NCBI RefSeq assembly: GCF_000769655.1
Contig: NZ_CP008887.1
Span: 558,001-622,000, forward strand
Reading direction: 5' to 3'
From: Thermococcus eurythermalis
GTDB taxonomy: Archaea; Methanobacteriota_B; Thermococci; Thermococcales; Thermococcaceae
DNA length: 64,000 nucleotides
Shown here: piece after piece, positions 6,029 to 46,717 of the stretch
Numbering within the stretch: position 1 is the first letter of the stretch
Layout: the number at the start of each line of letters is the position of its first letter
Notes under the pieces: generated by a model
What the model saw: the letters and a program-made list of their open reading frames with translations, nothing else
Database searches by the model: none
Told to the model about the DNA's origin: nothing
Program-made: the position numbers and the translations under genes

Positions 6029-6164
6029 ATTCAAATCGGTCCAGTGCCTCATGCTGCTTAAAAATCCCCAAGGTGGGCAGAGCACCATGGGTTTCCACCG
6101 AGAATACCTTGCAGAGTTGGATTTATACGTATAGTACTATGAAGATACTTTTGTTTAACAAAAG

Positions 6165-6173
6165 TTTTATATG
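6165..6173 (+). promoter_or_regulatory. Putative promoter for the 6250-6553 RNA or the downstream operon
   Basis: TTTTATATG is a good archaeal TATA match in a stretch of more than 500 bases without a gene (6029-6584). Transcription would start near 6195. A second candidate, ACTCTTATAAG, lies at about 6227-6237 and would start transcription at about 6258, almost exactly at the first stem of the structured region. No coding capacity is visible between these sites and 6585. Confidence 0.4.
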
Positions 6174-6249
6174 GTTCAACTTTGCTCATTACATTCAACG
6201 GGCGTTAAACAGTCGAAACTCTTTTAAACTCTTATAAGTTAGTAAGACT

Positions 6250-6553
6250 TCGAAAAGGCCACCGAGAAACAACCCGACGAGATGAGGGGTTTCGCGTTAC
6301 CCTCCAGCATTGGAGGGTTGACGCCGTAAGGCGTCCTCTCAAGACTGCCCGCTGTGGCAGTCAAAAGCTCTGATGGGTGGCCTCTAAAATGATAACCCCG
6401 AACCGCTCTGCGGTAGGGGTAACGGGCCTTAGACCGGGCCTGCGGGCTGGAGCCGAAACCGGCAACGGGAGTAGGTGATGGGCCCGCAAACCCTCCCGTC
6501 AATGGCTAGGGTAGTTCGTTAGAACCCTTGCCCTTTAGGGCGGGGAGGAGGTC
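6250..6553 (+). ncRNA. Hairpin-rich putative RNA with an IS200/IS605-like right end (omega-RNA-like remnant)
   Basis: No gene fits here, but complementary stems are frequent. GGCCACC at 6257-6263 pairs with GGTGGCC at 6376-6382 and encloses smaller hairpins: CCCTCC/GGAGGG, GACGCC-GTAA-GGCGTC and GACTGCC/GGCAGTC. Next come ACCCC/GGGGT around ACCGC-TCT-GCGGT, and ACGGGAG/CTCCCGT. The 3' end at 6525-6545 is CCTTGCCC-TTTA-GGGCGGGG followed by AGGAGGTCA. That terminal hairpin and tail resemble the right ends of archaeal TnpB-bearing IS200/IS605 elements, which in known cases form the 3' part of the TnpB guide RNA. No TnpB zinc-ribbon or RuvC coding is present, so this would be an orphan remnant or a domesticated RNA. 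It could instead be a long 5' leader of the operon at 6585. The IS assignment rests on memory of such ends, not on a search. Confidence 0.45.
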
Positions 6554-6584
6554 AGAGTGAATGCCTTTAACGGAGGTGATATGT

Positions 6585-6971
6585 GTGAAAAATCCTGTGA
6601 AACTTGGATTGCTCCTCTGTCTTGTTAGTTTGGTCTCTCTGGCCAGCGTATCGGCATGGAGCTCGAAGGCTGTCTCTTCCTCATCAGGATGCTGGAGAAT
6701 GTATGACCATGACGCGGACACCCCCCAGTGGGCCCCAGATGAATGGGTCTGGGCGGGTGTCTCAGGATGGCTTAACATATGCGATGGAAAAATAACCGTA
6801 GACACTTCAACCGTGAGGCATGTTGCATACTGGTCCGGCGTCAAGGTGGACAGGTCGCGGGTGGTAAAATACACCGGAGCAAGGGTTTCATACACAAAGA
6901 TACCCTACGAGAGGTACAATGGTGATACCGGGGAGGCCTTTGCGCTGATTCCTCACTTCTACAAGCACTGA
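6585..6971 (+). CDS. Small secreted protein heading the ABC/PEGA operon
   Basis: About 128 residues. GTG 6585 is chosen because GGAGGTGAT ends five bases before it; an ATG at 6561 is in frame but has no such site. The N-terminus is a clear signal peptide (VKNPVKLGLLLCLVSLVSLASVSA). The mature part of about 104 residues is rich in Trp and Tyr (SSGCWRMYDHD, WAPDEWVWAGVSGW, YTKIPYERY) with two Cys (in SGCW and NICDG) that could form a disulfide, and it ends in IPHFYKH. I do not recognise the family. Size, secretion and position before an ABC-2-type transporter resemble Sec-dependent bacteriocin loci of the lactococcin 972 kind, but the sequence match I can see is too weak to claim it. Confidence 0.65.
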   Translation: MKNPVKLGLLLCLVSLVSLASVSAWSSKAVSSSSGCWRMYDHDADTPQWAPDEWVWAGVSGWLNICDGKITVDTSTVRHVAYWSGVKVDRSRVVKYTGARVSYTKIPYERYNGDTGEAFALIPHFYKH

Positions 6972-46393: not shown

Positions 46394-46717
46394 GGCGAGG
46401 GGGTCGGGGGCTCTCGGGGTACTCCCGAGGAAGTTCCGCCCACCGCACCGGGGCCGCGGTGCCGCAAGGCACCTCCCGAGAGGGAGGGCAACGGCGCAGA
46501 AACGACACGGCCCCCGGGAGATGTGAATGACGCGTGCGAAGGGCCCGGCGACGGGTCCCGAGCTAACCCGCAGACAATCCCGGGGGATGCGGTGAAACGG
46601 CCGTCCCGCGGGGTGCAAGGCCGAGGGAGGGGCGATGAGTTCCCGGTGTGAGCCCCGTGGTAGGCCGCTCAGTCGAATGCCCCCTTGATACAGAAGGCGG
46701 GCTACGACCCCCTCGCC
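46394..46717 (+). ncRNA. rnpB: RNase P RNA (archaeal type A)
   Basis: About 324 nt and very GC-rich. The first 13 bases (GGCGAGGGGGTCG) pair perfectly with the last 13 (CGACCCCCTCGCC), forming P1. The CR-I motif GAGGAAGTTCCGCCC, the GCAGAAACGAC region, and the CR-V motif ACAGAAGGCGGGCTACGA are all present in the right order. It is the catalytic RNA that trims tRNA 5' ends. Short frames inside it are spurious. Boundaries are taken from P1 pairing. Confidence 0.93.

Follow-up and report, generated by a model that had tools for sequence, protein, structure and literature searches.

A protein-less IS200/IS605-type element likely to encode a stand-alone TnpB guide RNA in an operon leader of Thermococcus eurythermalis

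We analyzed a window of 64,000 nucleotides from Thermococcus eurythermalis (contig NZ_CP008887.1, positions 558,001 to 622,000; all positions below are those of the window, unless a contig is named) and focused on the leader of an operon whose first gene starts at 6585. An initial annotation, made from the sequence alone, had placed an orphan structured RNA at 6250-6553. We find that the structured region belongs to a longer element of 363 bp (6193-6555), with the motif TTAC (6189-6192) directly 5' of it, which corrects those boundaries. The features of the locus are as follows.

6165-6174, plus strand: TATA-like box of the host operon (TTTTATATGG), outside the element; a TATA-like sequence stands at the equivalent place in element-free leaders of relatives.
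6189-6192, plus strand: TTAC, the insertion site and left target motif, which 39 of 52 copies with a left hairpin have at this position.
6193-6555, plus strand: protein-less IS200/IS605-type element, left-end hairpin deleted, delimited by empty-site alignments and by the alignment of eight copies from the same genome.
6215-6231, plus strand: candidate BRE/TATA-like promoter of the element itself (GAAACTCTTTTAAACTC), a motif present in 62 of 66 copies.
6249-6390, plus strand: 5' structured domain (covariance model R1, 153.2 bits here and no more than 14.9 bits at tnpB loci).
6391-6555, plus strand: 3' domain, the TnpB omegaRNA scaffold (covariance model R2, 169.2 bits here).
6526-6555, plus strand: right-end hairpin and terminus, ending in GGAGGAGGTCAG (TCAG in 62 of 66 copies; ISDka2 match).
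6556-6575, plus strand: predicted guide AGTGAATGCCTTTAACGGAG in flanking host DNA, of assumed length, placed just 3' of the right end by analogy with TnpB biology.
6572-6579, plus strand: ribosome-binding site GGAGGTGA of the downstream gene, read from the sequence and overlapping the predicted guide.
6585-6971, plus strand: first operon gene, encoding a small protein without a Pfam match, with orthologues at 71-91% identity in seven other genomes.

The 5' RNA domain measures approximately 140 nt and the 3' domain approximately 165 nt. The enclosing stem described by the annotation is present (GGCCACC at 6257-6263, GGTGGCC at 6376-6382), as is its terminal hairpin, CCTTGCCC-TTTA-GGGCGGGG at 6526-6545, followed by AGGAGGTCAG up to 6555. 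A TATA-like box at 6222-6229 accounts for the upstream TATA box that it had proposed. Its statement that no TnpB coding sequence is left also holds, as the genome's 16 PF07282 matches all lie away from C1:564150-564600. The loop of the first 5'-domain hairpin (6273-6290, CCCGACGAGATGAGGGG) resembles an L7Ae kink-loop, with the strict pattern in only 22 of 38 copies. Elsewhere in the window, the archaeal RNase P RNA (RF00373, 199 bits) occupies 46395-46716 on the plus strand.

A DNA search with 6150-6600 matched 22 places in the genome itself (2,126,164 bases). Eight of these are full or nearly full copies, the window copy and seven others at 72-78% identity. When the copies were aligned with their flanks, all eight had the right end GGAGGTCAG followed by unrelated sequence, and the seven sibling copies start just 3' of TTAC with a hairpin of the CCTCGCCCTTTAGGGCGGGGATGCAG type that is missing from the window copy. 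Thus, the idea of a stand-alone RNA without tnpB stands, while that of a single orphan gives way to a family of mobile, multicopy elements that have a 5' domain peculiar to them and carry a promoter-like motif themselves. Some siblings carry internal deletions (for example L008, L139, and L140).

Matches were found in 46 of 61 genomes of the genus, and the R1 model gave 200 matches in 52 of 94 genomes across the order, representing five of six genera. Among 66 copies compared (47 of the genus and 19 of other genera, excluding L165, which has no R2 match), a left-end-like hairpin occurs in 52 and the TCAG terminus in 62, with copy-specific sequence after it, and the promoter-like motif is also present in 62; the 40 fetched genus copies were selected among the best DNA matches, so this sample leans toward well-kept copies. 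TTAC stands at the expected spacing in 39 of the 52 copies with a left hairpin, whereas control windows average 3.5 of 52. Outside the genus, 20 R1 copies were examined, and in 19 of them R2 follows within 2 nt. An exact 23-base pattern from the 5' domain occurs in five stretches of genome contigs, all in records titled Thermococcus, Thermococci, or Thermococcales. A plasmid search gave no match to the element, and a phage search returned the right end only, in three records (HAV2 twice and ATV2). Two copies have unusual architectures: L026 (887-1019) is a 3' domain by itself that has lost an internal segment and is accompanied by neither the 5' domain nor tnpB, and L117 has CTGACCTCCTCCCC, the right-end sequence in reverse complement, at its left end, as though an inverted copy lay next to it.

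The predicted fold of 6247-6555 has a free energy of -145.5 kcal/mol (z = -4.99), and none of 100 shuffled sequences was equally stable. A consensus fold was derived from an alignment of 37 of the 47 aligned copies; those left out were deleted, degenerate, or cut (L008, L138, L139, L140, L129, L134, and L132) or near-duplicates (L005, L119, and L121), and L127, at a contig end, had been left out earlier. It comprises 57 pairs, and 95.8% of the cells are paired. Changes on both sides of a pair were found in 109 cells, compared to a mean of 41.9 (sd 5.8) in shuffled alignments and 8-23 when the structure was slid along the alignment. The number of pairs changed on both sides, 17 against a shuffled mean of 13.0, is less striking taken alone, given that 12 of 500 shuffles were as high. 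The covariation is spread across the whole 300 nt, far from the ends of the element. G-U combinations (131 cells) outnumber A-C combinations (46 cells), an excess that is expected if the plus strand acts as RNA. The structure of 6247-6555 is not due to chance.

IS200/IS605 elements have subterminal hairpins at both ends. The window copy has the right one and lacks the left, which 52 of 66 copies have; the family qualifies as IS200/IS605, and the window copy is a left-truncated derivative of it. Because it has lost its left-end hairpin, this copy should be immobile. Its structure is well kept, with 55 of 57 pairs intact, as in the other four copies lacking a left end (55, 56, 55, and 51) and in the remaining 32 (mean 54.4). 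In an orthologous pair in which neither copy has a left end (L101 and L104), differences fall in three of 114 paired columns versus 27 of 199 unpaired columns (p = 0.0011).

The dispersed copies within a genome also show signs of gene conversion in their sequences. Over 75 nt, L006 and L003 of the same genome do not differ at all, whereas L006 and its orthologue L115 are 86.7% identical; for the 5' half of L121, the nearest match is L107, from the same genome. For four of five orthologous pairs, identity in the core falls several per cent short of that in the better-matching flank. Among L006, L115, L112, L121, L003, and L107 there are segments that resemble a paralogue more closely than the orthologue at that site. 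Gene conversion of this kind may be a trace of break repair, and it may keep the structure intact without selection at each locus.

These observations bear on the possibility that the locus is a relic of transposition without RNA function, that is, a DNA element resembling a PATE or MITE whose hairpins serve movement only and which has been decaying since the left end was lost. The missing left-end hairpin and the internal deletions in siblings would fit such a relic, and PATEs, which are protein-less IS605 derivatives, are described as common in Haloquadratum (PMC3119063). We nonetheless consider it unlikely, as covariation extends far from the ends over the full length, the G-U/A-C asymmetry points to an RNA, the promoter-like motif recurs in nearly all copies, and pairing is kept even in the orthologous pair without left ends.

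Orthologues of the operon gene at 6585 occur in seven other genomes, and their leader is free of the element in all seven. When the element is removed from the window sequence, the leader aligns with five of these relatives without a gap through the junction, with one across a 3-nt gap at the junction, and with one with a 1-nt gap beyond it. Since the element-free leaders align in this way, the element inserted directly 3' of TTAC (6189-6192), downstream of the TATA-like box of the host (6165-6174) and upstream of the ribosome-binding site (6572-6579). For another copy (L003), a contiguous match across the joined flanks was found in 12 other genomes, and the junction of L008 is spanned in several genomes; for L007, no clean match spanning the junction was found. 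The empty sites can be explained without target duplication, and insertion 3' of a short fixed motif without such duplication is characteristic of IS200/IS605 elements. A decayed tnpB gene was considered for this site and rejected, given that the relatives show an empty site and that no tnpB coding sequence is present; the annotation had named a tnpB frame at this spot in relatives as the result that would speak against its reading, and the seven relatives have an empty site instead.

The annotation had also suggested that the RNA may have become the leader of a secretion operon. The location in a leader is confirmed, and arose by insertion; the secretion part finds partial support, in a Pfam ABC ATPase and a PEGA protein encoded downstream. 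The RNA could have been kept by the host as a regulatory 5' leader or as an extra promoter of the downstream operon. The position between host TATA-like box and ribosome-binding site suits this possibility, and no terminator-like site was found in 6100-6700. The transcription start site of T. kodakarensis HgcC4, which lies outside transposase genes, is given as the main start site of TK1679 (PMC4247193), and P. abyssi sRkB is described as running into PAB0571 (PMC3124441). Against such domestication, the element is absent here from all seven relatives that have the orthologous gene, and hence there is no sign of long-term retention, and the RNA is of the same kind as copies elsewhere. We regard this explanation as quite unlikely.

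The identity of the 3' domain is indicated by its relationship to tnpB genes. Two covariance models were built, R1 for the 5' half (142 positions, 38 copies) and R2 for the 3' half (167 positions, 36 copies). R2 has 22 matches in the genome, comprising nine places without tnpB, ten tnpB genes (80.9-114.7 bits), and three weak matches (below 20 bits). At all ten tnpB genes the R2 match starts at a constant distance, 22 nt, from where the Pfam TNB match ends, so the 3' half is the omegaRNA scaffold, overlapping the 3' end of tnpB. The omegaRNA-like 3' part proposed by the annotation is thereby supported at ten of the 14 tnpB genes of the genome. The other four (L009, L010, L011, and L012) have no R2 scaffold match and would need other guide RNAs. 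The ten loci with R2 all end in TCAG; six of them have the left-end motif, five of these with TTAC. The TCAG terminus, common to sibling copies and tnpB loci, likewise bears out the proposed IS200/IS605 right end, and the last 34 nt of the element are 97.1% identical to a stretch at and just past the annotated orfB end of ISDka2 in Hyperthermophilic Archaeal Virus 2. In the archaeal viruses ATV2 (L147) and HAV2 (L146), this right end coincides with the end of an OrfB gene or lies just downstream of it.

Two properties expected of an omegaRNA are therefore found: a scaffold homologous to tnpB 3' ends at a fixed position (10 of 14 loci), and a scaffold that stops at the right end, so that the flanking DNA would form the guide (TCAG in 62 of 66 copies, followed by copy-specific sequence). 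The comparison with IS605 copies of the same genome that the annotation had called for gave a divided result, in that the 3' half and the ends are common to tnpB loci, while the 5' domain is absent there. R1 was searched at 24 loci, including the tnpA-tnpB element and all 14 tnpB loci together with 1.5 kb of flanking sequence, and no match exceeded 14.9 bits (E = 0.027). On this basis we rejected the idea that the 5' domain is a remnant of tnpA or tnpB.

The genome could supply both proteins. Three loci have long, uninterrupted tnpB frames (424-437 aa), and the one tested has OrfB_IS605 and TNB domains and weak similarity to solved TnpB structures (E = 3e-07). There is one Y1 transposase gene, in an element that shares this right end and has a comparable left end. 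Across the order, 50 of the 78 genomes with a clear TnpB (defined by us as a best TNB match below 1e-9) carry the element versus two of 16 without (Fisher p = 0.00019), as do 22 of 25 genomes with a Y1 transposase versus 30 of the 69 that lack it (p = 0.00012); the copy numbers are correlated (rho = 0.67). All three values are uncorrected for shared ancestry, and more mobile genomes may hold more of everything. As a point against such dependence, two of the 52 genomes with the element, both drafts (G038 and G050), have no clear TnpB. In addition, 30 of the 52 have no Y1 transposase, and thus many copies cannot move now.

The annotation proposed checking whether the bases after the right end match a target in the genome, and no convincing second target was found. 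TTAC plus 14 guide bases, allowing up to three mismatches, gave a two-mismatch site at C1:1866383, within a coding frame, and a three-mismatch site; the backward control pattern also yielded one. By our own arithmetic, approximately 0.05 matches are expected for the two-mismatch site. We did not count C1:1866383 as a second guide target.

That the RNA is a decoy, binding TnpB to restrain it (for the host or in competition between elements) rather than to guide cuts, could draw on the presence of the scaffold with an extra 5' domain and on the proposal of circular omegaRNAs as decoys (PMC12558985), but is very unlikely, as 62 of 66 copies preserve the right end and the scaffold-guide boundary, features that a decoy could do without, and as the copies are mobile with ends common to tnpB elements.

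The explanation that we favor, and consider probable, is a stand-alone omegaRNA element that relies in trans on TnpA for its movement and on TnpB as its nuclease. Its identity as a protein-less IS605-type element encoding a stand-alone omegaRNA is well supported by sequence comparison, and it is likely that the RNA works with TnpB in trans; use by a TnpB elsewhere, which the annotation had offered as one possibility, is thus plausible. It is a non-autonomous IS200/IS605-type element whose sole product would be an RNA of approximately 300 nt. TnpA, from the one Y1 gene in the genome, would move full copies in trans, and TnpB from other loci would bind the 3' domain, with the first 16-20 or so nucleotides of flanking host DNA as the guide. 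The complex would then cut TTAC-plus-guide sites that lack the element, for example on sister chromosomes of a polyploid cell, and repair after the cut would copy the element in and so keep it. T. kodakarensis is described as polyploid, with 7-19 chromosomes (PMC4502288). Even without its left end, the window copy may go on producing a guide RNA against its own empty site, and its transcript probably extends into the operon.

More tentatively, and with some doubt, we suggest that these are RNA-only selfish elements, in which the protein gene is absent, movement by TnpA and retention by TnpB are provided from elsewhere, and a separate 5' RNA module found across five genera of one order lets the guide RNA work apart from the nuclease gene. 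Copies without a left end would persist as fixed guide RNAs in gene leaders, a possible route to domesticated TnpB guides. The element would be a minimal parasite of a parasite, an RNA using the nuclease and transposase of a transposon and encoding neither. Should the RNA act in trans, a single TnpB could serve many loci, copy number would be independent of keeping the nuclease gene, and copies without a left end would be a ready source of fixed host guide RNAs. Thermococcus kodakarensis is genetically tractable, and hence a direct test is possible.

Among known RNA families, the Rfam search proposed by the annotation gave nothing at gathering score here and only two relevant subthreshold matches, HgcC (RF00062; 36.2 bits, E = 1.2e-6, gathering score 50) and sot0042 (RF02656; 28.6 bits, gathering score 88). 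Subthreshold matches to RUF2, WT1-AS, and PCA3 were set aside as chance. None of 20 loci of the genome, eight element and 11 tnpB loci among them, reaches the HgcC gathering score. In T. kodakarensis, HgcC4 and HgcC5 are reported to be transcribed outside transposase genes, with HgcC4 in the 5' region of a gene (PMC4247193). The HgcC model (130 positions) covers only 6475-6568 of the window and not the 5' domain of the element. We presume that HgcC4 may be the copy at G011:C1:1474313 (L129); the 5' domain of that copy is weak (40.9 bits).

The closest described transcripts include the P. abyssi RNAs sRk48, sRk52, sRkB, and sRkC, reported as stand-alone, promoter-bearing, repetitive, and related to OrfB 3' ends, several of them binding L7Ae (PMC3124441). 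We liken them to the element by description; their main species are shorter, approximately 130-220 nt, with sRkB also at 343 nt, and they were described before TnpB guides were known. Related transcripts (HgcC4/5 and sRk48/52) have thus already been published as orphan RNAs, and our analysis links orphan archaeal RNAs of the HgcC and sRk types from earlier surveys to the TnpB guide RNA system. In the open literature (subscription journals being mostly outside this scope), we found no report that connects TnpB guide RNAs to HgcC or to IS605 derivatives that are protein-less or stand-alone.

The PATEs of haloarchaea have no transposase gene, IS605-like ends, and no target duplication (PMC3119063). 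The family fits this definition (protein-less, IS605-like palindromes, no target duplication), while the window copy lacks the left palindrome; neither an omegaRNA nor a promoter is reported for PATEs in the parts of that paper compared here. The TnpB omegaRNA of ISDka2-like elements has the same 3' domain and right end, as seen at tnpB genes of this genome. Unlike it, the element has no tnpB in cis, has its own promoter-like motif, and carries an extra 5' domain of 142 positions that is absent from the tnpB loci of the genome. The stand-alone IscB omegaRNAs of Ktedonobacter are likewise guide RNA loci apart from the nuclease gene, although the nuclease there is IscB instead of TnpB and the host is a bacterium.
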